Assembly (NCBI RefSeq): GCF_014279895.1
Contig: NZ_CP047954.1
Location: 744,001 to 808,000, forward strand
DNA length: 64,000 nt
Direction: 5' to 3'
Source: Synechococcus sp. M16.1
GTDB taxonomy: Bacteria; Cyanobacteriota; Cyanobacteriia; PCC-6307; Cyanobiaceae
Shown piece after piece: positions 9,678-26,500 of this stretch. The notes under the pieces are model-generated. The model worked only from the letters and a program-made list of their open reading frames with translations, was not told the origin of the DNA and did no database searches. Positions within the stretch are counted from its first letter, which is position 1. Every line of letters starts with the position of its first letter. Both the position numbers and the translations under genes were made by a program.

Positions 9678-9750
9678 GGGGCCATAGCTCAGCTGGTAGA
9701 GCACCTGCATGGCATGCAGGGGGTCAGGAGTTCGAGTCTCCTTGGCTCCA
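9678..9750 (+). tRNA. tRNA-Ala (anticodon GGC)
   Basis: The 73 nt fold into a normal cloverleaf: acceptor GGGGCCA/TGGCTCC including the alanine identity pair G3-U70, D arm GCTC/GAGC, anticodon stem CCTGC/GCAGG around loop ATGGCAT (anticodon GGC), and T arm AGGAG-TTCGAGT-CTCCT. No CCA is encoded; the gene ends with A73. It is the attachment site of the island: bases 9705 onwards are repeated at 26447 and 49028. Confidence 0.97.
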
Positions 9751-9754
9751 TTCT
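9705..9754 (+). other. attL: left attachment site of element A (tRNA-Ala 3' half)
   Basis: The 50-base stretch from CTGCATGGCATGCAGG through CATTCT is repeated exactly at 26447-26496, and with one mismatch plus a one-base shorter end at 49028-49076. It covers the anticodon arm to the 3' end of the tRNA, the usual crossover region of tRNA-targeting tyrosine recombinases. Because the 5' half is intact here, the tRNA stays functional after integration. Confidence 0.92.
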
Positions 9755-9783
9755 TAAGAAAAGCCAGTCCAGCACTGGCATCT

Positions 9784-9811
9784 GAGCGGTCCACTCGGGC
9801 CGCTTTTTTAA
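9784..9811 (+). terminator. Terminator downstream of tRNA-Ala
   Basis: A hairpin of the form AGCGGTCC-ACTC-GGGCCGCT is followed by TTTTTT. It lies just inside element A, so the element supplies its own terminator to the tRNA gene it entered. Confidence 0.7.
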
Positions 9812-9835
9812 TGAAAAACGGCTAAATATCATTTT

Positions 9836-9858
9836 TTGTGCGCCAAAGTGTGCGCCAA
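9836..9858 (+). repeat. Left arm-type recombinase site of element A (paired TGTGCGCCAA repeats)
   Basis: Two copies of TGTGCGCCAA are separated by two bases. The same 23-base unit with one mismatch occurs at 26298-26320, just upstream of the integrase gene at the other end of element A. Paired direct repeats at both ends of an element are the expected form of arm-binding sites for a tyrosine integrase. Confidence 0.65.
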
Positions 9859-9900
9859 TCTTGCGGGGAAGGTGTTGAGCGGTGCTAGTGCCAAAAACGC

Positions 9901-9968
9901 GCTGTGTATCCATTTGAACGACGCAGGGGTTGACACTCCCCTATAAAGGATCTGTAGCAACCGCTACA
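9901..9968 (+). promoter_or_regulatory. Promoter of DUF4278 cassette 1: conserved upstream block, -10 box and NtcA palindrome
   Basis: From 5' to 3' there is the conserved block GCTGTGTATCC (9901-9911), a -10 box TATAAA (9942-9947), five bases, and the palindrome TGTAGCAACCGCTACA (9953-9968), a perfect GTA-N8-TAC NtcA site. The same order and the same 5-base spacing occur at the other three cassettes. Because the NtcA site lies at or just after the expected transcription start, NtcA should repress here, as it does for the glutamine synthetase inhibitor genes. Confidence 0.75.
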
Positions 9969-9969
9969 T

Positions 9970-10041
9970 AACGTTCACTCCTTTCGAAGGGGCGCAGACA
10001 CTCCAAGCCACGGAACGGGGACTTGGAATTTTCTGAGGAAC
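9970..10041 (+). promoter_or_regulatory. Glutamine riboswitch-like leader (Downstream-peptide type), cassette 1
   Basis: The leader has the sequence pattern I recall for glnA/Downstream-peptide RNAs: ACGTTCA, a hairpin ending GGGGCGCAG, then CCAAG-CCACGGAACGGGGA-CTTGG, and finally CTGAGGAAC containing the ribosome binding site. The four copies in this window covary in both stems (for example CCAAG/CTTGG here and CCAGG/CCTGG in cassette 4). GAAC near the ribosome site could pair with GTTC at the 5' end, giving glutamine-dependent control of translation. Confidence 0.8.
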
Positions 10042-10046
10042 TAACC

Positions 10047-10214
10047 ATGACTGCTCTTCTCTACAGAGGTCACTCCTACGAAGCTCAAGCAGCTTCACCC
10101 AAAGCTTGTGTCGAGCTGACCTACCGCCGCGAGCACTACAACACCTGCCGCGAAGAAGTCGCTCAAAATGCTCATCCGAGCCTGACCTACCGAGGCGCGT
10201 CCTACACCAAGTGA
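10047..10214 (+). CDS. DUF4278 small protein (PirA-like), cassette 1
   Basis: 55 residues starting MTALLYRGHSYEA, with a C-terminal LTYRGASYTK. This LTYRG-x-x-Y motif, present in three variants along the chain, defines DUF4278. Synechocystis PirA, a small PII-binding regulator of arginine synthesis made under nitrogen excess, belongs to the same family; a PirA-like role here is inference. The start at 10047 follows the riboswitch ribosome site GAGGAA. It is nearly identical to the copies at 30393 and 40748, and is the only one in element A. Confidence 0.85.
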   Translation: MTALLYRGHSYEAQAASPKACVELTYRREHYNTCREEVAQNAHPSLTYRGASYTK

Positions 10215-10238
10215 TCAAGGCTTGATCAGAAGATCCCT

Positions 10239-10268
10239 AGCCCCTGCCCTCGGTGGGGGTTTCTTTTT
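10239..10268 (+). terminator. Rho-independent terminator of cassette 1
   Basis: A GCCCCTGCC...GGTGGGGG hairpin precedes TTTCTTTTT. The same CCCCTGCC/GGCAGGGG plus TTTCTTTTTGCC terminator follows the other three DUF4278 cassettes and also occurs at 41957. Confidence 0.7.
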
Positions 10269-10307
10269 GCCTGGAGTTGGCATCCTTGGCTGAGCAGTCA
10301 GGCTCTG

Positions 10308-10469
10308 ATGGCACGGATCGGCAACAAAAAAGCGTTCACCGTCCACCTAAGCGATGAGATGGCGGCAATGCTTGATCTCAAGCGGAAGGAGTGGTGCCTA
10401 AGAAGTCGCGGTGAAGTCATAGAGCGCCTTTTGGGTTGGATGGTCGAGTCCTCAGAGTCGGACTCGTAG
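10308..10469 (+). CDS. Small ribbon-helix-helix-like protein
   Basis: 53 residues. A short beta-like start (KKAFTVHLSDEMAAMLD) is followed by a helix-turn-helix stretch (SRGEVIERLLGWMVE) in the size and layout of CopG/Arc repressors. It may regulate the element. The assignment rests on pattern only. Confidence 0.5.
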   Translation: MARIGNKKAFTVHLSDEMAAMLDLKRKEWCLRSRGEVIERLLGWMVESSESDS

Positions 10470-10505
10470 CCGTTGTGAAGTTGCGCTGGTGGTGATTGAG
10501 GAGAC

Positions 10506-10838
10506 ATGAGCTACTTCAAGTGCCCTCACTGCAACTTTGATCCCGGTGCCCATGCTTGGTCGGGTATGGCCCGGGCGAGGCATAAATGGGAGGCGCACCA
10601 AATCCCTAGTAGCGCAACCTTCAACTCCAGAACCCACTACTACCCAGATAAAGAGACTTGGGATGAGTACCAGTCGAAGCTGAGGGTGGCGAGGCTCTAC
10701 CCAGTGCTCTCGCTTCTTAAACAGTGGATTAAAGGGATTCCCGAGAATCTCCACTTGTCGAAGTCACAGCTGCTCTGGCTCACCTTGGGCATCGGTCTAG
10801 TCCTTGGATACGCCTTGGCGCTTCTGTTCCATCGCTGA
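10506..10838 (+). CDS. Zinc-ribbon plus C-terminal membrane helix protein
   Basis: 110 residues. The N terminus has CPHC (residues 6-9) followed by His residues, suggesting a small zinc-binding fold. The C terminus (LSKSQLLWLTLGIGLVLGYA) is a membrane helix closely similar to three short proteins at 36260, 43269 and 49246. The function is unknown. A run of 232 bases without a recognisable gene follows before 11071. Confidence 0.6.
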   Translation: MSYFKCPHCNFDPGAHAWSGMARARHKWEAHQIPSSATFNSRTHYYPDKETWDEYQSKLRVARLYPVLSLLKQWIKGIPENLHLSKSQLLWLTLGIGLVLGYALALLFHR

Positions 10839-11070
10839 AGCTCTGGCATCAATCAGAGCCACCAACGCTGAACGCAAATGCAGCTGGCGGGATGCGCTGG
10901 TGATGACCGCCAAGGGAAATGGCTTCGCCGGCGGAGTGACGTAAGGAAGGTCGAAAAGAGAGAGAAATTCAGGTAGGGGTGAGTGCTGATGAAAAGAACT
11001 GATTCGTCTTGGTCACGGGTCTAGTGACAGGAGCGCCTGAGGTCCTTAAATTCCACTCACACCAGATACA

Positions 11071-13044
11071 GTGTCCAAACGCTTCATAAGCTCCATGCCG
11101 GCACCACTACAGTGGGTTTCGACTCCGGCACTTGGTCAGGGCCGTGCCAGTGGGGGAAGCACTGCGGCCGAGCTGTTTGAGTCAGGAAGTAGTCAGAAGC
11201 GCAGGTCCCTTCTCGAGACACTCGTAAGAGAGATCTGCCAGAACAGCTGCGATCAAAGGATCGGCTCTGAGAGGGCATCTGTCTATTTCGATCTGCTGCT
11301 GCTGAACGGTGAAGAGCGTGATGCATTTCTAAGGGCTGCGGACTGGGGTGGTTTGAAACCGCACATGGGTGCGGTAACTGGCCTCAGTGGTGCTGCGCTC
11401 ACCCTCAGAGCGGGGCTCGAGGCGATGGAAGCCGACACGCTCGTCTGCCTGCGCATCAGCGACAGCGGCACCGAAGGTCTTTCGGGAGATGACTGGGACG
11501 AGAGCGGCAACTTCCGCCGCCTCTGTATTCAGAATTTCTCCACCGGCAATGACGCCGGGCGTGGTGGAAGCTTCGGACTAGGCAAGGCGGTGAGCTGGAT
11601 GCATTCGCGCCTGCTCACGGTTCTGTTCTCCTCACGCGTGCATGGCCGGGAACAGGAAGGCTTGAGGCTGTTCGGGCGAAGCGAGATCCCGGCCCATGAC
11701 ATCGAAGGAGCTTCATTCCTTGATGGTGCCTATCTCGGCTCACCGGGTCTTCGCGACGGAATCGATGTGGCTTTGTCCGACTGGAGAACTGAGGAAACAT
11801 GCGTCGATTTGAAGCTTGAAAGAGCAGGGCTCAGCGGAAGCGGGACGACACTTCTTATTCCCGCGTTCCATGAACCAGATCGGGAGGACACAGGGGCACT
11901 TGGCATTCGGGATCCGGAAGATCTCTGCGCAGACCTGACCGATGCCGCAGCGAAATGGTTCTGGCCAGCGATCAGCTGGGGACGCCTAGAAGTGCAAGCC
12001 CGTGTCTTTCGCAGTGGCGATGCAAATCCAAGCCACGTAAGCCGTGCCGAAGTGAACGGCATTTGGGCACCTTTTCTCGCCGCCAGTCGGACCGAACCTG
12101 GAACCGCTGCTGCCCTCGACCCCGGAGACTCCGCAGCCCTGGATCTGACAAGTTTTCCCCTCCCCCGGAGAATCCACCCAGAGGACCGGCCAGACCTGCT
12201 TCACAAGCCTGCTGAGACCACCATCCGTCTGGGTGTGACGAGGGTTAGTCCCACCGAAGGCTGCCTGCCTTGTCGATCCACCATTGCTCTGATCCGTGGG
12301 GCCGGAATGGTCGTCGACTATGTCGACGGAAATCGCTTGAACGACGGCGGCGCTTATTGCGCAGCTGCAATGGTGGGAAATGCCATTCAGCACATACCGG
12401 CTTCCGCCGCCATGGATGCTCAGAGCGCAGTGCCGGCGGATGTGGAGGAGTACTTCCGGGCTGCGGAGCCAGTCACGCATGACGACTGGCTTCCGACCAC
12501 CCGCCGACTGAGGGAGAGCTACGACTGGCGTGGGTCGGCAGGACGACTGAGGGGCCTGCGCTCTGAGCTGCGGCAGTTGGTGATCCAGAAACTTCTGATT
12601 GCAGATGAACCGTCACCGGATGAAGGCCCGGAACTGCTTGCACGGATGCTCAATCTCGGCCGGGGGATCAGCCCGACTTCTGAGACAAAACGCGGCGAGC
12701 GACCGCGGTTGGAAATTGTTCTGGACCGCGATGGATGCTGTTTTGATCCATCACGGAAAGGATGGTCACTTCAGGGTGAGCTGATCCGTCATGGCAATGG
12801 CGAAGCGAGCGCTACCGCAGGACTCAGCTTCAGCAGCTTGGCCGATTCCGGTAAAGGGGAAGCCTGGAGAATCAGCGACATCGAACTGATGGGCTCCGTT
12901 AAAGAGGTGAGCCTGGATGATTCCGATGCAAGGCGCTTCGTCTTCTCGGTGAGTTCAGAGTTCCGCACACTCCCGTTCCGCTGTCTGGTCAAGCCTCCAA
13001 CGGGTGTTGACCCGGCACTTGCCGGTTTCCGGCAGGGGGGTTGA
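11071..13044 (+). CDS. GHKL (Hsp90/MutL/MORC-type) ATPase, module 1 protein A
   Basis: 657 residues from a GTG; an ATG at 11095 is an alternative. The Bergerat ATP fold is clear: catalytic Glu54 and Asn58 in LVREICQNSCDQR, Asp131 in ISDSGTEGL, and the glycine lid GGSFGLGKA at about 165-173. The remaining 450 residues are not recognised and contain beta-rich stretches near the C terminus. It heads a four-gene operon (11071-16858) ending in a DNA methyltransferase. The operon is GC-rich, unlike the equivalent module on the other strand. GHKL ATPases beside DNA methylases are known from MORC-like restriction-type loci, so a role in genome defence is inferred. Confidence 0.8.
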   Translation: MSKRFISSMPAPLQWVSTPALGQGRASGGSTAAELFESGSSQKRRSLLETLVREICQNSCDQRIGSERASVYFDLLLLNGEERDAFLRAADWGGLKPHMGAVTGLSGAALTLRAGLEAMEADTLVCLRISDSGTEGLSGDDWDESGNFRRLCIQNFSTGNDAGRGGSFGLGKAVSWMHSRLLTVLFSSRVHGREQEGLRLFGRSEIPAHDIEGASFLDGAYLGSPGLRDGIDVALSDWRTEETCVDLKLERAGLSGSGTTLLIPAFHEPDREDTGALGIRDPEDLCADLTDAAAKWFWPAISWGRLEVQARVFRSGDANPSHVSRAEVNGIWAPFLAASRTEPGTAAALDPGDSAALDLTSFPLPRRIHPEDRPDLLHKPAETTIRLGVTRVSPTEGCLPCRSTIALIRGAGMVVDYVDGNRLNDGGAYCAAAMVGNAIQHIPASAAMDAQSAVPADVEEYFRAAEPVTHDDWLPTTRRLRESYDWRGSAGRLRGLRSELRQLVIQKLLIADEPSPDEGPELLARMLNLGRGISPTSETKRGERPRLEIVLDRDGCCFDPSRKGWSLQGELIRHGNGEASATAGLSFSSLADSGKGEAWRISDIELMGSVKEVSLDDSDARRFVFSVSSEFRTLPFRCLVKPPTGVDPALAGFRQGG

Positions 13045-13047
13045 TTC

Positions 13048-14076
13048 ATGGAATTCCTTCCCTGGAAGACAGTCGACTTGGACGGTGCATTCCGCGTTAC
13101 AGCTCCAGAAAGTATTTCTGAAGAGGTGATTCAGGAGGTGAGCAATGCGGTCACCTTCCGTTTCAGCGGAGAGACGAAATCCATCCGTCTGGAGATTCTC
13201 CTGACACCACCATGGGGTTGGGAAGAGTGTTTCCCTGCAGTTGAACAGGAGCAGCCTCCTGCTCGTTTCATCTGCCGGCTGATCAGTAGATCGACCGGTC
13301 GAAGGATCGTGGTGCCACTTGAGGATGACGGCCTCGGTCTGTGGTTCGCCGAGCATGATTTCTCAGCCCTTCTTGATGGGGAGGAAATCCGAGCCGAGGC
13401 TCTTCTGGTCCGGACGGAAGCAGCTGAAGAACTCTGCGATGGGTTTGCCGACAAGAAGGGGCAGATCGTTGGCCGCAGCTGCATTCATACAATCCGCTTC
13501 ACAAGCAGAAGTGCGAAAAGCGAAGCCCTGTTTCAGCTGCGCTGGACTGACTTTCCAAGTGGAGCGAGCCAGCAGCTCTGGCGGCTCCAGGCCGGTGAAC
13601 CCCCGGTGCTTGAACTCAACGCGAAAGTTTCAGCACCCCTGCGGAGACTGCTGATGAGCCGCGGCAGGCGCCGCAACGGGCCGGCTCTGCAGCGTGATGC
13701 TGTGTTCATGGCGATCTGCTCAGGCGTATGGCCTCTGCTTGTCTCCGGTGCACTTGCCGATCTTCAGCGCATCGTGGATCAGGACCGGAGCATCGATCCC
13801 GAAGAGGCGATCGCATCGATGAACAGCTGGCAGAGCAGGTTGCTCGGTCTGTTCGCTCCAGGGCTTACCGGCGCTGATCTGCCGGCCCACAGCGCCCTTC
13901 CCTTGCTCGTGCGTGAACTCCATAGCCCGGGAGGATTTATGCGCCTGATGCTGCGGATGCCGGCACTGATTCAGGAAGAGACACGTCTGGTGACACTTGC
14001 CGAGGCGATGGCCGACGCCCAGCAGGTTCATCCAGCGGCAGAGGCTGAGGCGGCCATCGAAGCGGAGGCGGCATGA
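13048..14076 (+). CDS. Module 1 protein B (beta-rich N terminus, helical C terminus), function unknown
   Basis: 342 residues, beginning four bases after the ATPase gene. The first 190 residues are beta-rich; the segment EPPVLELNAKVSAPLRRLL leads into a helical part (AVFMAICSGVWPLLVSGAL). The AT-rich operon at 17670 encodes a protein in the same position with a similar plan (GPSIQLSNNF..., then IFACSFWPFAIEQIISSAI). I infer these are distant relatives. No catalytic motif is seen. The last four bases overlap the next gene (ATGA). The C terminus is an Ala/Glu-rich tail. Confidence 0.75.
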   Translation: MEFLPWKTVDLDGAFRVTAPESISEEVIQEVSNAVTFRFSGETKSIRLEILLTPPWGWEECFPAVEQEQPPARFICRLISRSTGRRIVVPLEDDGLGLWFAEHDFSALLDGEEIRAEALLVRTEAAEELCDGFADKKGQIVGRSCIHTIRFTSRSAKSEALFQLRWTDFPSGASQQLWRLQAGEPPVLELNAKVSAPLRRLLMSRGRRRNGPALQRDAVFMAICSGVWPLLVSGALADLQRIVDQDRSIDPEEAIASMNSWQSRLLGLFAPGLTGADLPAHSALPLLVRELHSPGGFMRLMLRMPALIQEETRLVTLAEAMADAQQVHPAAEAEAAIEAEAA

Positions 14077-14789
14077 GCAACGATCTGTTCCGGCTCGTCC
14101 ATCCGGTGAGTGAACAGGGGCTTGTGGAAGCGCTTCGCGATCCCCATCTGCTGGAGGTGAAACCGGTGGATGCCGAGGTGGACCTCTCGGGTTTCGATGC
14201 CGCGCTTGAGCAACTGCTCAGCAGTGATGTGCGCGAGTCCGCGATGGACGGTGCTCTGGTGGAGCCACTGCACAGAGCCCTGCGGCACCTGCCGGAATCG
14301 GTGACCACCGACATGCGCGTCTGGCACTGGTTCTGCCTTGTTCGCCATCACGATTTGGTGTGGAGGCGATGGAGGGGAAGCGCACCCGCCGATCCTGAGG
14401 ACGGATTCCTCAGCGGGAAAGGGCATCGACCAGTGCCGGCGGTTCGTTTTCTGGGCACAGCCTCGATCAACGGCCACGGCCGCAACACCTTCGCCCGTCT
14501 GTTTTTCGCAGCACAGCGACTGATCGGATCCGAAGGCGAGGACTACGACCTCGTCAGGCGCCTGTTCACCAGCCAAGAACTGCATCTCGGCATCAGTGAC
14601 CGGGAATACGGTTTGCTCCCGGCGGTGAACCGTGTACTCACGAGCGAGCTGGCAGATCTGCCTGATCTGCGGGTGCGTGCGGGGGTCCGCCGCCTGAACG
14701 GCCTCGGAGGATCGATCTGTCTCGACCTACTGGACGAAGGCGAGATCGCCGGACTGATCCGAAGCAACGACGAGGAGCAAAGCGCCTAA
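14073..14789 (+). CDS. DUF6339-like protein, module 1 protein C
   Basis: 238 residues, mostly helical. The segment RFLGTASINGHGRNTFARLF (about residues 127-146) and the later LFTSQELHLGISDREYGLL resemble the DUF6339 family seen in defence-type operons. The product of 16915-17670 holds the matching position in the second operon and shares the layout HSVREPYRLY ... SRQDCVSNKEI. The start overlaps gene B by four bases and the stop overlaps the methyltransferase start (TAATG), so the operon is tightly coupled. Confidence 0.6.
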   Translation: MSNDLFRLVHPVSEQGLVEALRDPHLLEVKPVDAEVDLSGFDAALEQLLSSDVRESAMDGALVEPLHRALRHLPESVTTDMRVWHWFCLVRHHDLVWRRWRGSAPADPEDGFLSGKGHRPVPAVRFLGTASINGHGRNTFARLFFAAQRLIGSEGEDYDLVRRLFTSQELHLGISDREYGLLPAVNRVLTSELADLPDLRVRAGVRRLNGLGGSICLDLLDEGEIAGLIRSNDEEQSA

Positions 14790-16858
14790 TGGTGAAAAGC
14801 CTGATCCCTGATGATCCGCATCGGTTGAAGGCTGTGAAAGGGCCCGAACAGGTTCTCGAGCCGAATCAAACCAGCTGCAGCCTTGATGAACTACCCGGCT
14901 ACATGCGATCGATCGCAGCGGATACCCCGCTTGCGGTGGATTTGTTTAGCGGTGCCGGAGGCTTGAGCCTTGGCCTGCACCGTGCCGGCTTCGAGGTGGT
15001 GCTGGCTTGCGACATCCGGCCTGACTCAATAGCGACCCACCGTCATCACTTCGGCGGCTGCTCTGAACAGTGCGATTTAAGTGACCCAGAGGTGCTGGCG
15101 CAACTCTGCCGCCAACTCAACGCCGGTGGGGAGGTGGCACTGGTAGCTGGAGGCCCACCCTGTCAGCCCTTCTCCCGGAACATCCGCTGGAGGAAGCACG
15201 ACGATGACGTGTTTGATCAGCACCAAGAGCTGAACGAGGGCCGCCGCGAACTGTGGGAATCGTTTCTCACCGTTGTTGAGGGCGTCATGCCGCGTGCCTT
15301 CTTGATGGAGAACGTTCCTGACATCGCCCAGACAGGTGACCAAGAGGTGTTCCGAGGAATCGTCAGCCGCGCGGAAGCTGCTGGCTACCGCGTGCATGCC
15401 CGTCTTGTTCATGCCTGGGAATACGGCGTTCCGCAGCTCCGGCCGCGGCTGTTCATTGCGGGCACCCGTCTGCCTGATTTGAAAGGAAACAGCTACTGCT
15501 CGCCATTGGTGTGGCCTGAACCCACCTGTAGTTCTCTTGAAGAAGCAGTCAGCTTGGACGACGCCATCGGCGACCTGCCAGCACTGGAGGGCGACTGGTG
15601 GGAGCAATGGAGCGAGACCAGCAAATACCACGGCCCAAACAACGCCTACCAGAAGCTGATGCGCAATTGGCTGCCCGTTCAGAGGGATGCTTTGTATGAC
15701 CACATAACCCGCAAGGTGCGGGGCGATGACCTAGAGACCTTCCAGCTAATGCGAGATACCGGGCTCCGATATCACGAGCTGAGTGAGGAACAACGCCGCT
15801 ACGCCGTAACCAGTCGTGCGAAGAGAGAAGGGAAGCTGCTGGATAAAAAGGACAAGGAGAATAGCTTCAGCAATAAATACAACATCCTCAAGGCGAAGGA
15901 GCCGTGCCTGACCGTCACGGCTCACATGGCGAAGGACGGCTACTGGTACATCCATCACCAACAGAACCGGACCCTCTCGATCCGGGAGGCAGCACGGGTG
16001 CAGTCGTTCCCCGATGGCTTCCGTTTCCACGGCACGCCTTCGAACCGTTTCCACCAAGTGGGGGAAGCAGTGGCCCCGTTAGTCGGGGAAGCACTTGGCA
16101 GGGCAATGCTCGATGCGATTAACCGACGAACCGAAGAAGACCTTTGGCGATCACCGGAGCCGATCAGGCAGGAACTCCTCGACTGGTATCGCGATGAAGG
16201 TGTCGTAGCACTGCAGCCATGGGCACGGCAGAAGGAAAACGGAGTGTTGATTCCTGAGGAGATGAAGGCATGGAGAGTGTTCCTCGGTGAACTCCTCATA
16301 AACCAGCTGCCTGCCGAGCGGCAGATGCAGTTTTGGGAACGGGTGCTGAAGCGATGGCCAACTTATGAGACGTTCCTTGCAGACGCCGAACCGAATCGAC
16401 GTCGAACCTTTCGCAGCCTTCACCTCGAGAAAAATGAAAACCTGCTCCAGCAGGTAGCCATCCAGCTGAAGGAAGGACTCGAATGGAGGGAGTGGGTCCG
16501 TACTGATTTAAAGGGCTTAGGTCGAGATCGGATACGGCAATGCTTGGCGATGGTCGGCATCACGACTGATCGGAGCTGCAGCATTGGTCTGGGTCGGATG
16601 GTGGGTCGGATCAACGGCAGCGAAGAATCGGAACAGCTGCTCTCACGTCAGCGGCGCGAACTGAACCTGGGTCTCCTATTGGGGGGGGATCAAGACGGCC
16701 GCATCTACCGGGCCGCCGTTGCAGTTGCAGAGCGCTGGTGCCAGCCGGAGGCACTGTGCGAAGGCGGTCTATCGGTCAACAGCGATCAGTGTCCTCTATG
16801 CATCAACAGATGTTGCGGGTTTGCTCAGGAGGAAAGAGAAAATCTAAAAGCAGGTTAA
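14789..16858 (+). CDS. DNA (cytosine-5) methyltransferase with C-terminal HhH-GPD-like domain
   Basis: 689 residues. Methyltransferase motifs occur in order: I DLFSGAGGLSLGL (51-63), IV GGPPCQPFS with catalytic Cys125, VI ENV (174-176), VIII QLRPR (216-220), IX SIREAARVQSFP and X QVGEAVAPLVGEALG. Residues about 455-680 are extra: FLGELLINQLPAERQM, then LKGLGRDRIRQCLAMVG (574-590), align well with the helix-hairpin-helix of endonuclease III/MutY-type glycosylases, and a Cys cluster (668, 671, 675, 676) lies at the end. The usual catalytic Lys and Asp seem replaced (GRD; CSIGLGRM). No restriction endonuclease gene adjoins it. Confidence 0.92.
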   Translation: MVKSLIPDDPHRLKAVKGPEQVLEPNQTSCSLDELPGYMRSIAADTPLAVDLFSGAGGLSLGLHRAGFEVVLACDIRPDSIATHRHHFGGCSEQCDLSDPEVLAQLCRQLNAGGEVALVAGGPPCQPFSRNIRWRKHDDDVFDQHQELNEGRRELWESFLTVVEGVMPRAFLMENVPDIAQTGDQEVFRGIVSRAEAAGYRVHARLVHAWEYGVPQLRPRLFIAGTRLPDLKGNSYCSPLVWPEPTCSSLEEAVSLDDAIGDLPALEGDWWEQWSETSKYHGPNNAYQKLMRNWLPVQRDALYDHITRKVRGDDLETFQLMRDTGLRYHELSEEQRRYAVTSRAKREGKLLDKKDKENSFSNKYNILKAKEPCLTVTAHMAKDGYWYIHHQQNRTLSIREAARVQSFPDGFRFHGTPSNRFHQVGEAVAPLVGEALGRAMLDAINRRTEEDLWRSPEPIRQELLDWYRDEGVVALQPWARQKENGVLIPEEMKAWRVFLGELLINQLPAERQMQFWERVLKRWPTYETFLADAEPNRRRTFRSLHLEKNENLLQQVAIQLKEGLEWREWVRTDLKGLGRDRIRQCLAMVGITTDRSCSIGLGRMVGRINGSEESEQLLSRQRRELNLGLLLGGDQDGRIYRAAVAVAERWCQPEALCEGGLSVNSDQCPLCINRCCGFAQEERENLKAG

Positions 16859-16914
16859 GAAAAATTATTTACGCTCGAATATCGCTTTGATGAAACGTTT
16901 TTCGATAGAAATTA

Positions 16915-17670
16915 TTATTGATTCTCCAGTTCAAATCCTGGCCCTAAATAATTAGACAACTCAGATGCTTTTAGCTCAGGAGCATGAAAAGTTACTGCTA
17001 AACGTTTGAACAGTTTGCCAAGGCGAACGGTGCTATCTCGACCAGTACCCTTGTCAGGCTTTGGCACAGTTGCTGTACCTGCCTTAGCGAAACCGTCGGG
17101 CATTGCATATTTCATCACAAGGTATTCATGAATTTCCTTATTAGAAACACAATCTTGTCTTGAACGAATGGATTCAATTATATTTCCTTGTTGGTGAATG
17201 TTTTTGCTGAAATAAATTTTGGCAGAATCTCTATATTGTTTGTATAAGCGATATGGCTCTCTCACGGAATGACGGTGAGCAATAGGTTGCCACCCTAACT
17301 TTTTTTTATAATCCCCTATGATAGGAATGTAGTGCTCCATTCTTGATACTTTGGAGAAATTCTTCGTTAATTGTTCTAAGTAGACACAGGACAACCAAGA
17401 CCACATGTATGGTTGATTGATTTCTCTCCCAATAAAATCTGATTCGTCAATCAATTCAACCAAATACTTGCCTAGCTGAAAACGATTCGAAAAACGTCTA
17501 TTAAGCTCGATTTCTATTTCAGAAATCTGTTCGATATTTTCTTCTGAAAAAAGATCAAAGTCTTGGAGAAGTCTTTCGTCTTTTTTTGTTCGAAATAGAG
17601 CAATCCTGTCCCAAATATGCTGAAGATATTCAGGCTTAAACCTTGAAACTGGGAAAGAGATTTTATTCAT
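16915..17670 (-). CDS. Module 2 protein C (DUF6339-like), function unknown
   Basis: 251 residues, AT-rich gene. The segments AHRHSVREPYRLYKQY (about 120-135) and SRQDCVSNKEIHEYLVMKYA (about 158-177) match in layout the DUF6339-like protein at 14073. The N-terminal third is helical and charged. The start shares one base with the stop of gene B (TAATG). It is the last gene of the leftward operon. Only 56 bases separate it from the rightward operon, and I see no clear terminator there. Confidence 0.65.
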   Translation of the reverse strand: MNKISFPVSRFKPEYLQHIWDRIALFRTKKDERLLQDFDLFSEENIEQISEIEIELNRRFSNRFQLGKYLVELIDESDFIGREINQPYMWSWLSCVYLEQLTKNFSKVSRMEHYIPIIGDYKKKLGWQPIAHRHSVREPYRLYKQYRDSAKIYFSKNIHQQGNIIESIRSRQDCVSNKEIHEYLVMKYAMPDGFAKAGTATVPKPDKGTGRDSTVRLGKLFKRLAVTFHAPELKASELSNYLGPGFELENQ

Positions 17671-18479
17671 TAGTCATCATCTCCCATTACTGATTCCCAT
17701 AGTTGCTTATCGTATCCAAATCTTCGGATCCATTGATCAATAATACTAGGTAGGACCTCAGAATCAAAATTAAGCTCGTCTATTAGTGTAATTCGACCAG
17801 ATTGAGCATGGAAATGACCAGGCGCCAGCTCATGTGCGAGAGCAAGCCACTTTTGTGCCCAATCTTGGTCAGAGCGAATAGCCGAAGAGATTATTTGTTC
17901 GATCGCAAATGGCCAAAATGAACAAGCAAAAATTGGATCATTTAATGCCATATTCTTAATGCTAGTAAGAGAGACATTACCTGATTCAGTTTGGAAGTTA
18001 TTAGAGAGCTGGATGGATGGACCGTCTTCTTCATCGATATCAACTCTTGCTATTCTATTGCCTAAAGCAGCTGGAATCATAGGCAATAAGCTTCCAGTGT
18101 TAGACGATATTGTCATTAAAAATGATTTAGATTGACATACAATTGCCTTTGAAGAGTTGTCAAATAAACGAATACGAAAGTATGGCTTGCCATCGATATT
18201 TATAAACTTCTGGGATTTAAGATCTAGAATAAGAGGAAACTTAAGGGGCTCTGAAAGGGGATAGTTTTTATATGCTGTCTTTGGCGCACTATCCCAAGCA
18301 TAAATTGATAATGTAAGTTTCTCGATATCAAGATCTTTAAAGTATGCTTTTTGATCAATACTAGTGATTATCAACTTGTCGAAATTTGGTGTGATGTTCC
18401 ATGAGAAGGCATGTTGGGGCAGAAGTTTAATTTGACGAGGAGTCGTTCTGCTTTTTGCTGTGGATTTAATGTTATTCAT
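17670..18479 (-). CDS. Module 2 protein B, function unknown
   Basis: 269 residues. The N-terminal half is beta-rich (LTLSIYAWDSAPKTAY, KPYFRIRLFDNSSKAIV). The C-terminal half is helical, with PIFACSFWPFAIEQIISSAI and an Asp/Glu-rich tail. Position and plan equal protein B of module 1 (13048). The ATG overlaps the ATPase stop (ATGA). No enzyme motif is recognised; a structural adaptor or sensor role is possible but unproven. Confidence 0.7.
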   Translation of the reverse strand: MNNIKSTAKSRTTPRQIKLLPQHAFSWNITPNFDKLIITSIDQKAYFKDLDIEKLTLSIYAWDSAPKTAYKNYPLSEPLKFPLILDLKSQKFINIDGKPYFRIRLFDNSSKAIVCQSKSFLMTISSNTGSLLPMIPAALGNRIARVDIDEEDGPSIQLSNNFQTESGNVSLTSIKNMALNDPIFACSFWPFAIEQIISSAIRSDQDWAQKWLALAHELAPGHFHAQSGRITLIDELNFDSEVLPSIIDQWIRRFGYDKQLWESVMGDDD

Positions 18480-20500
18480 TGCACAACCTCATCAAGTGAC
18501 TCGTTATTTAGGTCTTCTATGGGCCTTCGTATGAGTTTATATCGTATAACATAACCCCAATAAGGATGAAGACCATCAAAAATTAGTTCGAATTCAGAGC
18601 CGTATGGACGTATTTCGATTTTATTCAAGTCTGCCGTAAATGCGCATCCATTTTCTTCAAGCAGTCGACACGTCGATAAATTGAAATCAAATGGGTCATA
18701 GTCCTTGAAAGGATTGCCATTTCCTTCAAGGCAATCTGCTGCAATTTCAACTTTGAACATATCACCCTCTTCGTATTCATATTCTTCATTAGAAGTAACT
18801 GCGATTTTACCCTCTGACTGAGAAACTGAAATGGCGGAACGCCGTGGACTATTGATTTCGATATCAACCACATCTTGTGTATCCTTTTTGTCGGTATTAG
18901 ATTTATTTTTTTTCAACTCCGATGGTAGTAGTGATTCAACAGAAACTACTGGGAAAAGATCCGAAAAGTAATCAGGGTCTGAATCATTCTCTGCATCAAG
19001 AACATAGGTTAGAAATTTATTCGCTGAATTTCGAAATAGTCTCAATATCAGTAGAGAGGAAGTCTTTTGAAAACGAACAGCATCTGCATTGAAATCTATA
19101 TTCTTAGCATTAAATTTTAAATGACTTGGTTCTTCAAATAGCTGTAATAAAGAATCTATTCGGGGTTGAAAAGTAGTTGTCAAGACGTGTAGATCATCTC
19201 TTTGTGATGCGATCTTTAGCATTGGCCTTATTTCTTCCCATATAATTTGGTCGCTTCTCATCATCAAACCCTTAGAGCTTGATTTTTTTAAGCCGGGTTT
19301 GGCTGAAGATGAAGTACGTTCTACATTAGATTTCTTTTGAATGAATACTGAATATAAAGGGAAGTTGGTTGGAGTGTCATTTTTGTATTTTATTGGTGGA
19401 CTAAACTGAACTTCTATCATATTGCCGTTTTTGATATTCTGAAAAATTTCTTCTGGAGTTGCATTTTCCTCAAAGAAGGATGATCTTAAGGGTGACTCGA
19501 GTTCTTCAGGTTTTAGATTACTGCGGAGTTTATAGATGTTTTTGCCTATTTGTTCTTTGCCCCTATTCGCGCGAGCACTTAAGCAAAAGTCAATTAAGTC
19601 TTTGTTGACATAGCTCTTGGCATCGTCTGTTACTTCTGATGCAATTATTTGCATCAAAGTATTCTTATCAAGGATTTTATCGTCTAAGTTCACGACAAGC
19701 TTGTCTTCTAGAATAGGCAAAGCCCAGTTATTAATTAGTGCACTTAGGAGATTATTGAAGTCATATTGGTCGGCTTCTAGAAGTACAAAGTCAGTGCCAG
19801 TATCAACTTCATTTCTGCTTGACATTTCAAAAACTCTTTCGAATGCTTCATTCTCTTCGTCACTAACAAAATGATCCTCGTTATTACTTCCCTTTCTAAA
19901 ATATGCGTCACATTCGCGAATTTCTAATGCATTGAGTTTATGTGGCTTTGCCATAAGGCATTTCCCTTGGACTTTGGTTTTGCCGCCTTTTAGCTTTGTT
20001 CTGCAAAGTACAGTCCAAATTGAGGATAATCCCCAAATGGCTACCTTGCCTTGGTTCGCTGAACCAAGATTTTGTGATCCTTTACTCCCTGTATGAACTT
20101 GACCGGAGAAGTGAAAATATTTTTCCCAATCCTCATCTTGTAATCCAGTAGTTCCTCTATCAGATAGAATCACAACGCTGTATTTTCGGTTATACATTTC
20201 TCCTATGTCGCCACTATCTTTAAGCCACTGCAGTAGGCGGCTTGAGACGATCTTGTCGTATAACTTGTAGTTTTGCTTGTCTATGTGCTTGAAGCTGATT
20301 GAAACTACGGCTTTTTGGGAAGAAAGGCTTCTGGCATCTAGAGAATTCTGAATTAATTCGCGTATGAAAATTTCCGACTCGTCACGATTTTCGGGGCGAA
20401 AATTTTTCTTCTCCAAAGGTGTCCTTGAGACTCCTGCCGATATTTTCCGCGTGTTTGCCTCCCAGGCAAATTTTGATAGTGGTCGATTAAATAAGTCCAT
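18476..20500 (-). CDS. GHKL ATPase, module 2 protein A
   Basis: 674 residues with a complete Bergerat fold: Glu48 and Asn52 in FIRELIQNSLDARS, Asp114 in ILSDRGTTGL, and a lid NLGSANQGKVAIWGLS (about 144-159). After the lid the sequence IWTVLCRT parallels LLTVLFSS in module 1, so the two ATPases share more than the ATP site. The C-terminal third has Ser/Asp-rich linkers and beta segments. The gene is clearly AT-rich, which points to a different donor from module 1. It is coupled at both ends to its neighbours. Confidence 0.8.
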   Translation of the reverse strand: MDLFNRPLSKFAWEANTRKISAGVSRTPLEKKNFRPENRDESEIFIRELIQNSLDARSLSSQKAVVSISFKHIDKQNYKLYDKIVSSRLLQWLKDSGDIGEMYNRKYSVVILSDRGTTGLQDEDWEKYFHFSGQVHTGSKGSQNLGSANQGKVAIWGLSSIWTVLCRTKLKGGKTKVQGKCLMAKPHKLNALEIRECDAYFRKGSNNEDHFVSDEENEAFERVFEMSSRNEVDTGTDFVLLEADQYDFNNLLSALINNWALPILEDKLVVNLDDKILDKNTLMQIIASEVTDDAKSYVNKDLIDFCLSARANRGKEQIGKNIYKLRSNLKPEELESPLRSSFFEENATPEEIFQNIKNGNMIEVQFSPPIKYKNDTPTNFPLYSVFIQKKSNVERTSSSAKPGLKKSSSKGLMMRSDQIIWEEIRPMLKIASQRDDLHVLTTTFQPRIDSLLQLFEEPSHLKFNAKNIDFNADAVRFQKTSSLLILRLFRNSANKFLTYVLDAENDSDPDYFSDLFPVVSVESLLPSELKKNKSNTDKKDTQDVVDIEINSPRRSAISVSQSEGKIAVTSNEEYEYEEGDMFKVEIAADCLEGNGNPFKDYDPFDFNLSTCRLLEENGCAFTADLNKIEIRPYGSEFELIFDGLHPYWGYVIRYKLIRRPIEDLNNESLDEVVQ

Positions 20501-20721
20501 CAGTCAATCTTGAAGGGCTGGAAGGTTTCATTAGAGGCCTCAAACTTTTTGCACACTTCTTGTACCTTTGCTCGCAAGGCTTTCTGAATCGCCTTGGCTT
20601 GACTTTCTGAGTAGGAGTAATTGCTCTTATTAGAGAGATTTCCCACCAAATCCAAAGCTTTAAGCGCTTTTGGAACGCGCTTGTTCGCCAGTTCTACGAA
20701 GTGATCTGAATTGGGCTTCAC
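20500..20721 (-). CDS. Small helical protein heading module 2
   Basis: 73 residues: FVELANKRVPKALKALDLVG, then a GNLSNKSNYSYSESQA stretch and an amphipathic helix. I recall similar short proteins next to restriction or ATPase defence genes, but no function is known to me. Its stop overlaps the ATPase start by one base. Likely promoter sequence lies in the AT-rich 20722-20770 interval. Confidence 0.65.
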   Translation of the reverse strand: MKPNSDHFVELANKRVPKALKALDLVGNLSNKSNYSYSESQAKAIQKALRAKVQEVCKKFEASNETFQPFKID

Positions 20722-20769
20722 AAGAAAATGTATCCTTTTCTTTCTTATAGACGCATCTAGAGCTGCCTG

Positions 20770-20976
20770 TCAAGCGCTCGTAGTGATCTGAATGCTGCAT
20801 TCTGACGCGTACATATGCCAAATGAACGGCGTTACAGCCTTTAAGGGCTTTGACTGGAGATGTCTCGCTGTCCTGACTATCCAGTGTCTATAGGCTTTTT
20901 GAAGTTTCTGCTCGCGTTGCGCATCGCATAGTGCTGACACTCGTTTTTCGTTCAAGCCTTTGCGTTGGGCGATCAC
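20770..20976 (-). CDS. Small protein coupled to the HNH gene
   Basis: 68 residues from a GTG that overlaps the upstream stop by four bases (GTGA). It is basic at its start (IAQRKGLNEKRV) and partly helical. The coupling is the main reason to accept it as a gene; no domain is recognised. Confidence 0.4.
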   Translation of the reverse strand: MIAQRKGLNEKRVSALCDAQREQKLQKAYRHWIVRTARHLQSKPLKAVTPFIWHMYASECSIQITTSA

Positions 20977-21425
20977 TCCCCCAATGCATCCCCTCGGATA
21001 AGCCTGATATCGGCAACCCGGCGGCAGTAAGCGATGAATTCCTCAGGGGTCATGTCCCCTTTTGCGTCATTGGTCTGCCAGCTGACGATTTGAAAGTCAG
21101 GGATCGGCTCAGCTTTGACGTGATCAATGGTTGGCAGCATTGCGAAACGCCTCTTGTAGGCTGCGCCTTGAGCCTTGGCCTTGTCGTTTTTGTACTCGCC
21201 CAGCAGCTCTGGATCCAGCTTGGAACCGTCGTAGGGATCAAAGCCGTTGCAGCGATGAAATGCCTGATGAATGGCCTCTATCGCTTCCTTGACGCTGTAT
21301 TTGCCATCACGCTTCTTGTCGCGCCTAGTAACTGCTACAGCCTTCTTCCGAATTAATTCGCTGTAGTCCTTATCGTTTTGTTTAACCCAGTCAGGAGCAC
21401 TCCAACTCACGCCAACACCAGTCAT
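20973..21425 (-). CDS. HNH-like endonuclease protein
   Basis: 150 residues. The core GFDPYDGSKLDPEL followed by MLPTIDHVKAE (Asp-His of the beta-beta-alpha metal site) and SWQTNDAKGDMTPEEFIAYC (Asn-Asp-Lys region) has the order of HNH endonucleases of the DPY-G...DHV...NxxK type. Such genes often sit beside phage packaging genes. It diverges from the terminase-like gene with only 20 bases between start codons. Confidence 0.65.
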   Translation of the reverse strand: MTGVGVSWSAPDWVKQNDKDYSELIRKKAVAVTRRDKKRDGKYSVKEAIEAIHQAFHRCNGFDPYDGSKLDPELLGEYKNDKAKAQGAAYKRRFAMLPTIDHVKAEPIPDFQIVSWQTNDAKGDMTPEEFIAYCRRVADIRLIRGDALGE

Positions 21426-21445
21426 CCACTGCCCCCTATGTAGCC

Positions 21446-21826
21446 ATGACCCGCAAGAGAGTCACCGCTAGCGAGAAGAAACAACGCCATGAATGGGCGG
21501 TGCGGCAGATTGACGCCGGAATGGGTCTGAGTGAATTAACTGCCTTTACTGCCGAAACATGGGGGTGCAGCCGTAGAAATGCTCGTGATGTCGTCTGTGC
21601 AGCCCACAAGGACTGGCTGGATGCTGCCTACGGGTCAGAGGAGATCGACCAGCGGGACTTGCTCTTCCAGCAGGTGGGACGACTTGAACGCATTGCCCGC
21701 AAGGCTGAAAATGCAGGTCAGTTTTCAGCGGCTGTCGGTGCTATTACGGCGCTGAATCGAATGATGGCCCTGGGTGCTGACCAGAAGGGCTTCCGTGGTC
21801 ACTCAAACCATCACCACCGCCGCTAA
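21446..21826 (+). CDS. Probable phage-type small terminase subunit
   Basis: 126 residues. The first 60 form a helix-turn-helix (GLSELTAFTAETWGCSRRNA). A C-terminal helical pair, RLERIARKAENAGQFSAAVG then AITALNRMMALGA, is the oligomerisation pattern common in small terminases. No large terminase or capsid gene is present, which fits a satellite that borrows a helper phage's particles. Alternatively it is only a DNA-binding regulator. Confidence 0.5.
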   Translation: MTRKRVTASEKKQRHEWAVRQIDAGMGLSELTAFTAETWGCSRRNARDVVCAAHKDWLDAAYGSEEIDQRDLLFQQVGRLERIARKAENAGQFSAAVGAITALNRMMALGADQKGFRGHSNHHHRR

Positions 21827-21887
21827 GACAGGACCAACACAACTGTCCTGCGCACCTGTTACCTCAGCAAGCACGCAGAGCTTGACT

Positions 21888-23354
21888 TCAGAACAGGCAG
21901 TTGAGGTTGAGCGGCGGTAATGTCTCGGGCTTGGAGCCACCCGAGTCAACGTCGAACCCAGACCCCAAAGGGAGTTCGGGGTGCTGTCTCGCCGCCTCAC
22001 CCTTTTTCGCAAATCCCGGCAGGGACTGTTGATGTCCCTCTGTTTCTTGTCCTTCACTCCTTTCTCTAAAAGGAGGTGAGGCATGAGACAAATCGCCCGG
22101 ACCCCCTGCTGCCGCTGCTGGTTGAGGAGCCTCACGCACCCTTGCAGATGGTGAGGCTGCCGAGGCAGCTCGGTAGTGGGTCCACAGCCTGACCTTCACG
22201 CCGTGGCGGCGAGTCTGTCGCTTGGGTGGTTTGCAGCCGTGCTCCTTCAACGCCTCCTTGACGTGGTGGCGATCGCTATGTGGAAGGTTGCACCGGTCTA
22301 TTCCTTTCAGGCACTCATCGAAGGTGAACTCATCATTTGGGATCAGGCCGAAGCGGAGCCAGTGCCCCACGCTTGCCTCAAATGGGTTCTCCAGCTCGAA
22401 GCTCTTGTTCCGCTGGTTGCTCGCTTCCTGGTCCTCCGCTGCCAGGAAGGGAAGCTGCCCAGCCTGATAGGCCAGGACAGCGCCAAGCCAGATGCGGTCG
22501 CGATCTGCCTCAATCCGATCGCAGTCGATCTGGTCAACTTCAATGACAAGGAAGCGCCGGTGGCCGGTGGCATCCCTGAGGAAGTCGTCTCGGTTGCAGG
22601 TTCCGACCATGATTGATCGGCGCGGATGGGCCTCAATGAAGCGCCCATACGGTGCGAGGAAGGTGTCCACTGATGAACTCAGCAGGCCCTTGATCAGTCC
22701 CGATTCCTTGCGGCTGGTCATGTAGTCCAGCTCCGCTGCCTCGTAGCACCAGCAGCTGTGCAGAACGATCAGCTGATCCTTGTGCTTTGGCTGCTGAGTA
22801 TCGACCAGCCACTTCGGCCCAAACAGTTTGCGGAGCGAGGTTGATTTGCCTCTGCCCTGCTCTCCTTTGAACACCACCATGGTGTCGAATTTGGCGCCGG
22901 GGTCATAGATCCTGGCAACGGCTCCCAGCAGCATCACCCGCAGCATCCGGCACGACAGCGGATCGTCCTGGACACCCCAGTAGCTGCCGATTTGATCCAG
23001 GTCGATGGGTTCTAGATCGGGAGCCTTGACCAGGGTCTCGAGGTAGACCGCGACAGGGTGAAATCGGTTCTCCTGGGCGACGCGGAGCACAGCATCTTCC
23101 GCTGGTTTCTGAGCGATCCGCCATCCCCGCTCCGACAAGGCGACGTACAGCTGCTCCAAGGCTGTCCCTGGGATTGGTTGCTCTCCCAGTTCTGGTTGCA
23201 GCAGGAGTTCGTTCCATCGCAATCGTTTCCCAAACTGCGATCTCAACTTCACGCAGAGATTCCCCGGCGTCAGAGCGCTAAGCCTCTTGTTGCCCTTTTT
23301 GTCGGTTGTCCAGCCTTCGATCAGCCAGTCGCCGACGTGCAGGAGATCAGTCAC
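21888..23354 (-). CDS. VapE-type (virulence-associated E) replicative ATPase/helicase
   Basis: 488 residues from the GTG at 23354, chosen because AGGAGG lies eight bases upstream and the start overlaps the end of the primase gene by eight bases; longer starts at 23531 or 23552 would overlap it by about 200. Walker A is GEQGRGKST, then CYEAAELD and the sensor-like MVGTCNRDDFLRDATGHRRF, as in the VapE family that replicates satellites and integrative islands. The last 110 residues are a low-complexity Pro/Ala/Glu tail. Confidence 0.85.
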   Translation of the reverse strand: MTDLLHVGDWLIEGWTTDKKGNKRLSALTPGNLCVKLRSQFGKRLRWNELLLQPELGEQPIPGTALEQLYVALSERGWRIAQKPAEDAVLRVAQENRFHPVAVYLETLVKAPDLEPIDLDQIGSYWGVQDDPLSCRMLRVMLLGAVARIYDPGAKFDTMVVFKGEQGRGKSTSLRKLFGPKWLVDTQQPKHKDQLIVLHSCWCYEAAELDYMTSRKESGLIKGLLSSSVDTFLAPYGRFIEAHPRRSIMVGTCNRDDFLRDATGHRRFLVIEVDQIDCDRIEADRDRIWLGAVLAYQAGQLPFLAAEDQEASNQRNKSFELENPFEASVGHWLRFGLIPNDEFTFDECLKGIDRCNLPHSDRHHVKEALKEHGCKPPKRQTRRHGVKVRLWTHYRAASAASPSARVREAPQPAAAAGGPGDLSHASPPFRERSEGQETEGHQQSLPGFAKKGEAARQHPELPLGSGFDVDSGGSKPETLPPLNLNCLF

Positions 23355-24216: not shown

Positions 24217-24388
24217 GACCACCTCCGATTTGGCGCACTGTTTGGAGCACATTGAGCCCACTCAGGCAGATTTTTTTCAACTCCTGCAAGGGTTCTCAGT
24301 GCCGTGACGTACTGCTGCTGTGGCAGAAGGTCGCCTAAATTGACCACATCCTTGGCAGGGAGTGGCCCACGACCGTTTGGTCGTTGGG

Positions 24389-24649
24389 TCATTTTTTTGT
24401 ACCCAACAGCTGATCGCCTTTGATGCGATTCATGCCGTGGTAGCGCATGGCTTCCAGCACCAATGGCACGTTCCAGCGGATTGGTGACGTTGGCGTGATG
24501 CCAGGAATCCAGTGCTTATCGACAACAAGGAACCCACCGCTGATGTCGCGGTTGTCCTTCAGCCAATAACCGGAGACACCCAGCAGCCTTGCTGCTTCAG
24601 ATGTCTTGAACAGCTCGGGGGTTAGCCCTCTTCCAGCGTTTGATGTCAT
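24389..24649 (-). CDS. Small HTH protein, excisionase-like
   Basis: 86 residues. TSEAARLLGVSGYWLKDNRD is a MerR/excisionase-type helix-turn-helix, followed by GGFLVVDKHWIPG and PIRWNV. A relative with the same plan (DYLKRLRDSHGGFLLHGTHY...PITWDID) is encoded at 27162 in element B. The location between replication genes and integrase suits an excisionase or replication control role. Confidence 0.6.
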   Translation of the reverse strand: MTSNAGRGLTPELFKTSEAARLLGVSGYWLKDNRDISGGFLVVDKHWIPGITPTSPIRWNVPLVLEAMRYHGMNRIKGDQLLGTKK

Positions 24650-24902: not shown

Positions 24903-25017
24903 CCCGCCGAAGCAGTCGTGGTGGAGGTGGAACCTGGTGATTGCTCAGCCAGGGCAAACCTCTGAGTTGATCAACTTCTAATAGAACTTGCGGGAACTTG
25001 CAAGCGCTAAATCTGGT

Positions 25018-26277: not shown

Positions 26278-26297
26278 GTGATGCAGGTGGTCAGTGC

Positions 26298-26320
26298 TTG
26301 TGCGCCAAATTGTGCGCCAA
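26298..26320 (+). repeat. Right arm-type recombinase site of element A
   Basis: This is a paired TGTGCGCCAA repeat, 22 of 23 bases identical to 9836-9858. It lies between the integrase start and attR1. It probably binds the integrase N-terminal domain and may also couple integrase expression to occupancy. Confidence 0.6.
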
Positions 26321-26496: not shown

Positions 26497-26500
26497 TTGA

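Follow-up and report, generated by a model that had tools for sequence, protein, structure and literature searches.

Paired paraMORC2-type ATPase modules and a cytosine methyltransferase on a mobile element of Synechococcus sp. M16.1: a candidate defence system

Two convergent operons in Synechococcus sp. M16.1

A pair of compact operons, each built around a GHKL ATPase gene, face each other in a 64,000-nucleotide stretch of the genome of Synechococcus sp. M16.1 (NZ_CP047954.1, positions 744,001 to 808,000), hereafter the window, to which all coordinates refer. Operon 1 (11071-16858, plus strand) has the order A1-B1-C1-M1 and ends in a DNA methyltransferase gene, while operon 2 (20721-16915, minus strand) has the order D2-A2-B2-C2; the two are separated by 56 nt (Table 1). 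A first-pass annotation of this DNA had described two convergent, tightly packed operons of different base composition, and all eight open reading frames (ORFs) of this layout were confirmed. Genes within each operon overlap by 1 or 4 nt (C2 and B2 by 1 nt), except for a 3-nt gap between A1 and B1. The GC content is 58-62% in operon 1, 37-38% in A2, B2 and C2, and 45% in D2. The same gene order had also been claimed for both operons; this stands for the A genes, which are homologous, but B2 and C2 are not demonstrably homologous to B1 and C1.

Table 1. Genes and features of the paired operons and of the element that carries them (window coordinates; aa, amino acids).
Feature	Coordinates	Strand	Basis
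A1, GHKL ATPase, paraMORC2 type, PDC-M33A-like, 657 aa	11071..13044	+	PADLOC match, motifs
B1, middle protein, Ig-like beta region and helical C-terminal half, 342 aa	13048..14076	+	predicted model
C1, DUF6339 protein, PDC-M33C-like, mostly helical, 238 aa	14073..14789	+	PF19866
M1, C5-cytosine DNA methyltransferase with C-terminal MutY-like HhH-GPD region, 689 aa	14789..16858	+	PF00145
C2, third gene of operon 2, in the position of C, 251 aa	16915..17670	-	ORF, gene order
B2, second gene of operon 2, in the position of B, 269 aa	17670..18479	-	ORF, gene order
A2, GHKL ATPase, paraMORC2 type, PDC-M33A-like, very divergent, 674 aa	18476..20500	-	PADLOC match, motifs
D2, 73-aa protein, first gene of operon 2	20500..20721	-	relatives precede type-2 A genes elsewhere
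tRNA-Ala(GGC) gene	9677-9751		ARAGORN
Left attachment repeat, 3' part of tRNA-Ala(GGC) gene plus 4 bases	9705..9755	+	exact repeat
Mobile element, 16.7 kb, with the paired modules as cargo	9705..26446	.	att repeats, integrase, VapE-like helicase
Small HNH/endonuclease VII-like ORF	20973..21425	-	weak match to phrog_1035 (endonuclease VII), E 0.0048
VapE-like replication helicase of the element	21888..23552	-	PF05272 2e-57; phrog_1313 DNA helicase 2.3e-60
Tyrosine integrase of the first element	25018..26337	-	phrog_1 integrase 9.7e-16
Right attachment repeat, at which a second element begins	26447..26497	+	51/51 identical to 9705-9755

None of the eight operon proteins matched a helicase, restriction enzyme or PD-(D/E)XK family in Pfam, PADLOC or NCBIfam (for M1, the best 25 of its 61 PADLOC matches were considered, all of them methyltransferases), in agreement with the earlier remark that no helicase, nuclease or restriction enzyme of a known system is encoded here. 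No PD-(D/E)XK or HNH signature was recognised by eye in the alignment columns of A, B and C conserved at 75% or more, and Vsr had no match in window positions 1-30000. A terminator between the operons was considered and rejected, the stretch 16840-16935 folding worse than most of its shuffles (z 1.50). Terminator-like sites occur at chance level (11 against 11.4), and promoter-like sites number 14 against 8.2 (standard deviation 2.4), mostly within the AT-rich operon 2.

A proteins of the paraMORC2 type

That a GHKL ATPase heads both triplets, as first proposed, is supported by motifs and by database matches. A1 and A2 match the PADLOC model PDC-M33A with E values of 5.4e-19 (residues 44-189 only) and 9.3e-18 (residues 44-293 only), and both contain the GHKL motifs, namely the N-box E..QN..D (at 54 in A1 and 48 in A2) and DxGTxG. 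In an alignment of 59 A proteins, consisting of A1, A2 and 57 of 66 listed relatives, the residues E54, Q57, N58, G136, G166, G171, S179, G258, R409, E466 and H470 are invariant. The last two make up an ExxxH motif, found at 466-470 in A1 and 456-460 in A2 and kept in 59/59 proteins. A conserved ExxxH motif in the C-terminal part of the S5 domain has been described for paraMORC2 proteins (Iyer, Abhiman and Aravind, 2008, PMC2292703), and the motif of A1 and A2 appears to be the same one, in a stretch that is only presumed to be an S5 domain.

The two ATPases of the window share 15% identity in the family alignment and 25% in a pairwise one. A2 is recognised by a leave-one-out type-2 A profile (E 4.8e-15). 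Recent duplication is rejected as the origin of the pair because A1 and A2 lie far apart in the tree. Among 12 A proteins tried, that of a Lactococcus plasmid is the best pairwise relative of A2; a close relationship between them was also dropped, because the two do not group in the tree, in which A2 has an end branch of 4.58. The A and B profiles had no match among PDB sequences (A at E<=1). Viral contigs gave no relatives with A1, A2 or the A profile as query, and phages gave none with A2.

The M1 methyltransferase

The assignment of the last gene of operon 1 to a cytosine methyltransferase was upheld: M1 matches PF00145 (3.1e-49), and motifs I, IV, VI, VIII and X are present, so that the M1 sequence contains the motifs expected of an active C5 methyltransferase. 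Residues 459-689 (window 16163-16855) constitute a MutY-like HhH-GPD region fused to the cytosine methyltransferase. Within it, residues 459-534 match TIGR01084 mutY at 1.6e-6, under the cut-off of that model, and the C-terminal third of M1 matches a MutY chain at E 0.024. No Asp was seen by eye at the position of the MutY catalytic Asp, in the weak MutY alignment or in the family alignment. A cysteine cluster near the C-terminus of M1 is missing from the Prochlorococcus members, and haloarchaeal loci encode a separate HhH-GPD protein near the methyltransferase.

The B, C and D proteins

The beta-rich and helical character first attributed to the middle protein is seen in the predicted model of B1 (mean pLDDT 84), with strands to residue 191 followed by helices. 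Many Ig/FN3-type chains can be aligned with residues 1-156 (best Z 8.8, root-mean-square deviation 3.6, 106 aligned residues), a likeness that may be one of common arrangement only. The B1-type profile and a type-2 B profile, the latter made from 12 hand-picked triplets, match with 95.6% probability (E 1.2e-8), the type-2 profile itself containing B2. The B alignment consists of B1 and 58 of 65 listed B proteins, and the C alignment of C1 and 60 of 70 listed C proteins.

For the third protein, the proposed likeness to DUF6339 was right for C1, which matches PF19866 (DUF6339, 9.2e-16) and PDC-M33C (8.2e-9), and found no support in C2, for which there was no match. The predicted model of C1 is mostly helical (pLDDT 91). 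It had no Foldseek match in the PDB at E<=0.001; against 132 chains the best Z was 4.6 over 46 residues, by which a new fold is not proven. The best match of the C profile to PDB sequences has an E value of 0.32.

B2 and C2 match no family in Pfam, PADLOC or NCBIfam; neither B1 nor B2 matches PDC-M33B in PADLOC, nor C2 PDC-M33C. With the window left out of their construction, type-2 profiles fail to recognise B2 or C2 (hhalign probabilities 0.2% and 0.8%); in pairwise comparisons with 12 B and 12 C proteins, the z-scores lie between -1.4 and 4.0. Among 300 family genomes, relatives of C2 were found in its own genome only. The resemblance of B2 and C2 to B and C is one of position alone, and the role given to them here rests on gene order. 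For D2, phmmer found relatives among the D genes of Prochlorococcus (E 4e-29 to 5e-29) and in Deinococcus (6e-11). In Prochlorococcus, Cyanobium and Deinococcus loci, such relatives immediately precede A genes.

Recurrence of the A-B-C triplet

A contig scan of genomes with A gave 317 relatives, of which 80 were kept. With plasmid and genome loci added, the survey comprises 94 loci, cited below by L numbers, and includes 77 of the 80 loci from the scan. L045, L047 and L048 were dropped as lying on the contigs of L053, L062 and L054, respectively, and L050, L062, L063 and L064 as fragments. Many loci are close relatives of one another, as in Streptomyces and in the Prochlorococcus pairs L040/L059 and L041/L058, so that the counts do not represent independent events.

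Recurrence of the triplet in other genomes had been named as a test at the outset, and A, B and C occur in this order in 87/94 loci. A C5 methyltransferase accompanies 77 of the 94, against 0/20 control stretches of 20 kb from nine cyanobacterial genomes, which likewise gave no match to the A, B, C and M profiles. A Vsr or stand-alone HhH repair gene is present in 56/94 loci, and such neighbours are expected where 5-methylcytosine is made. A second A gene was found in 21 of the 94 loci, any Mza gene in 19 and a Drm or SACS-helicase gene in 35; the last are present in 31 of the 56 loci classed as "other". Among 300 family genomes, 15 have a PDC-M33A match, and eight of these 15 have two A genes, in every case within 10 kb.

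The A-B-C modules are distributed over several unrelated phyla, on plasmids and in genomes. A triplet on a Lactococcus plasmid (L011) matches PDC-M33A, B and C nearly over the full length (6.9e-162, 3.7e-63 and 3.7e-47); on the Lactococcus plasmids L011 and L158, the triplet lies between genes for an AlwI-type restriction enzyme and AbiG abortive infection genes. In actinobacterial loci such as L093 (4603-9435) and L116 (3436-6594), ABC modules occur near a DrmA-like helicase and a UvrD helicase, together with a 1600-aa protein that has a weak sacsin-type match and a ResIII helicase match. These loci are possibly a further DISARM-like composite.

Pairing and exchange of partners

The tree, which took in 17 of the 56 "other" loci, places 21 loci in the clade of module 1. 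In three of them (L052, L060 and L061) the contig ends within M or before it. Of the 18 intact loci, 13 have a second A gene (window, L007, L013, L014, L040, L041, L043, L044, L051, L053, L057, L058 and L059; that of L007 was counted through L159, across the record start), four have Mza genes without a second A (L042, L046, L054 and L055; representative Mza proteins were identified) and one has neither. The eight intact loci that came from the contig scan alone divide, in the same order, into five, two and one. In 16/17 loci the partner adjoins the 3' end of M or is one Vsr gene away from it, and in L007 it is divergent from A.

Six of the 13 loci with a second A (window, L014, L040, L043, L053 and L059) are of a form, called the D type, in which neither Z1 nor DUF4420 is present in the stretch seen. 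A Vsr gene is present in four of these (L014, L040, L043 and L059), and L053 has a SACS-helicase profile match on the other side of A. The other seven paired loci contain a gene for a PD-(D/E)XK (DUF4420) protein, and Z1 was seen in six. A second A and an MzaB-profile match never occur together in the 94 loci (0/94). For the 38 cyanobacterial and haloarchaeal loci the chance of no co-occurrence is 0.03, one of the four MzaB matches in this set (L008) being REase_II by PADLOC.

An exchange of partner can be followed between the window and L044. Window positions 11024-16741 are 87.6% identical to L044 over 5718 bp; the match begins 47 nt before A1 and leaves out the last 117 nt of M1, and it is the only one of more than 60 nt listed between the two. 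In L044, the A1-B1-C1-M1 cassette has Z1, DUF4420 and an A protein of another lineage as its partner. The sequences thus compared point to a natural exchange of partner beside a nearly unchanged ABC-methyltransferase cassette. The cassette itself is under strong purifying selection, the dN/dS ratio against L044 being 0.086 for A1, 0.064 for B1, 0.067 for C1 and 0.081 for M1.

Pairing is also frequent in haloarchaea, where nine of 13 loci have a second A. In six haloarchaeal pairs, the two A genes belong to two separate clades and are 38-43% identical within a locus, and the distances among the A genes correlate (r=0.98, exact p=0.0097, 6 loci). Haloarchaeal pairs (L083, L086, L087, L089, L096 and L012) are accompanied by two further recurrent proteins of about 258 and 508 aa, whose tested representatives had no Pfam or PADLOC match.

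Relation to known systems

The window shares the A-B-C order with PDC-M33, a candidate of PADLOC-DB 2.0.0, whose models are matched by A1, A2 and C1; B1, B2 and C2 are unmatched, and the best stretches cover A1 and A2 only partly. The window appears to differ from it in having two modules and a coupled methyltransferase. Its composition had at first been regarded as undescribed. In this respect the claim has to be revised, because the Lactococcus triplet matches PDC-M33 A, B and C and the A proteins carry the paraMORC2 motif, which make it a catalogued candidate; what stands out is the recurrent pairing. Mza (MutL-Z1-DUF-AIPR) has a GHKL ATPase and a cytosine methyltransferase neighbourhood in common with the window, and Mza genes hold the partner place beside module 1 in four loci, as noted above. 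However, Z1, DUF4420 and AIPR had no match in the eight operon proteins (Pfam and PADLOC), in ten further ORFs (Pfam) or with profiles in window positions 1-30000. DISARM, which consists of DrmA, DrmB, DrmC and DrmMII, also includes a C5 methyltransferase, and in actinobacterial and some haloarchaeal loci the ABC modules have DrmA or DrmB genes nearby. Profiles that find DrmA, DrmB and DrmC elsewhere had no match in window positions 1-30000. The GHKL domain of the A proteins is that of the MutL and MORC ATPases, in which it is expected to dimerise on ATP; eukaryotic MutL is a heterodimer. As for type II restriction-modification, no restriction endonuclease family is matched by the eight proteins, but B2 and C2 are without a known family and the nearby HNH-like ORF has a weak match.

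The paraMORC2 proteins, with GHKL motifs, ExxxH and members in cyanobacteria and Gram-positive bacteria, have been placed in restriction-modification operons, among DNA methylases, Vsr, SFII helicases and nucleases of the restriction endonuclease fold (PMC2292703). A minority of MORC neighbourhoods has a methylase or restriction enzyme and no helicase, and a subset adds a second GHKL protein, paraMORC1 (PMC2292703). In the window, unlike in these MORC and paraMORC1 pairs, the two GHKL genes are both paraMORC2-type, and sections 4-6 of that paper mention no B-C pair, no two paraMORC2 genes per locus and no exchange of a second module. A fusion of a GHKL ATPase domain to the Shedu nuclease is a different system (PMC12137116). 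Already known are paraMORC proteins in restriction-modification operons and MORC with paraMORC1 pairs (PMC2292703), and also PDC-M33. Two paraMORC2 modules per locus, a swappable partner, and a D-type form lacking any recognised helicase or restriction nuclease were not found in those parts of the literature that the searches covered, which likewise returned no paper naming PDC-M33 or DUF6339 and none testing a paraMORC2 triplet.

Possible function

Defence or self/non-self DNA recognition is the best inference from sequence and neighbourhood, because of the methyltransferase, the Vsr and HhH repair genes, the Mza and DISARM neighbours of related modules elsewhere, and the carriage of the operons as cargo of a mobile element. 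Going beyond this, we infer function, mechanism and contact between A1 and A2, and tentatively prefer a reading whose chances we put just short of even: a methylation-guided, restriction-like defence with a two-part ATPase engine, in which an ABC-methyltransferase module works with a swappable second module. M1 would mark host DNA, and A1 would act as an ATP-driven clamp on DNA, with B1 (an Ig-like and helical adaptor) and C1 (the helical DUF6339 protein) as putative subunits for recognition of DNA or of the partner. A clamp on DNA without the mark would then engage A2-B2-C2, which would take the place held elsewhere by the Mza MORC ATPase, Z1 helicase and PD-(D/E)XK protein, and the joint complex would block or destroy invading DNA. 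D2 probably regulates or chaperones A2.

Several observations weigh against this proposal. No methyltransferase was seen in 17/94 loci and no recognised partner in the fetched stretch of 31/94, some of which are cut by contig ends; L056 has neither a second A nor Mza genes, though about 6 kb follow its M. B2 and C2 appear to be without recognisable homologues, and the placement of A2 on its long branch is unsure. The two operons may instead be independent defence cassettes side by side, A1-B1-C1-M1 and D2-A2-B2-C2, without contact or dependence, which is somewhat doubtful but a serious rival. Defence genes in general cluster in islands, the A sequences are very different, and the GC shift of operon 2 and the long branch of A2 are also expected of an unrelated passenger. 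The stretches seen of the Lactococcus, Paenarthrobacter and Deinococcus loci contain a single A gene, as part of one A-B-C module near methyltransferase or restriction enzyme genes. In nine cyanobacterial loci, where partners are exchanged, the divergence of one A gene does not follow that of the other (r=0.12, p about 0.22), and therefore tight co-evolution of A1 and A2 across a close interface, as was once considered, is unsupported there. What speaks against mere passengers is that the neighbour is not random, a second A-B-C or Mza occurring in 17/18 intact module-1 loci, and that the haloarchaeal pairs are co-inherited, although their correlation reflects co-inheritance of linked genes, not contact.

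The missing nuclease may be sought outside the two operons, in a restriction-modification-like system whose ABC proteins are the ATPase and specificity parts and whose nuclease comes from the HNH-like ORF at 20973-21425 or from the chromosome. This ORF is encoded on the same strand as D2 and ends 251 nt upstream of it, and ABC relatives occur near annotated restriction enzymes. However, its nuclease match is weak, its GC content is 53% against 37-38% in A2-B2-C2, and its relatives are found in 29/201 family genomes as compared with 15/300 for A. Because its family is commoner than A, the ORF looks like a gene of the element, probably outside the paired system, and was set aside as the nuclease; we regard the idea as a whole as improbable. 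A shade less probable again is that the methyltransferase and ABC modules serve the element itself, by self-methylation against host restriction or by post-segregational stability, and not phage defence. The modules are indeed cargo of an integrating element with a VapE helicase, and restriction-modification systems in general can be addiction modules, but relatives of these modules are found across unrelated phyla, on plasmids as well as in genomes, and accompany Mza and DISARM genes.

An unlikely reading is immunity without a nuclease, in which two different MORC-like ATPases and their adaptors would form a heteromeric clamp that recognises DNA without the host's cytosine mark and silences it by clamping or compaction. 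If so, it would be a bacterial and archaeal counterpart of eukaryotic MORC-based silencing, its minimal form would be the D-type pair (window, L014, L040, L043 and L059), and the Mza or DISARM partners would be alternative effectors. The pairing of one constant and one swappable module provides a handle on which half recognises DNA and which half acts, and bears on how MORC-type ATPases worked before their uptake by eukaryotes for chromatin silencing.

The mobile element and its neighbour

The paired operons lie in the first of two elements arranged in tandem at tRNA-Ala (9705-26446). Two elements are recognised because the tRNA repeats are each paired with an integrase just inside the right-hand copy: a third copy of the tRNA-Ala repeat is present at 49028-49076 (98% over 49 bases), and the integrases at 25018-26337 and 47578-48849, which are 35.5% identical, each lie just inside the right-hand repeat of their own stretch. 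The match of the first integrase to PF00589 (2.1e-5, 24.8 bits) is under the cut-off of 27.1. The first element appears to be satellite-like, and we take it to resemble the "tycheposons" of picocyanobacteria.

Beside the HNH-like ORF of this element, the ORF 21446-21826 (126 aa) belongs to the phage family phrog_34910, of unknown function; a terminase-like reading of it was dropped, phrog_34910 being its only match, with none in phages or viral contigs. The second element (26447-49076), bounded by att repeats of 51 bp and 49 bp, has its own integrase (47578-48849), and its cargo includes a ParA-like ATPase (29592-30287) and an SNase-like protein (28546-28890).

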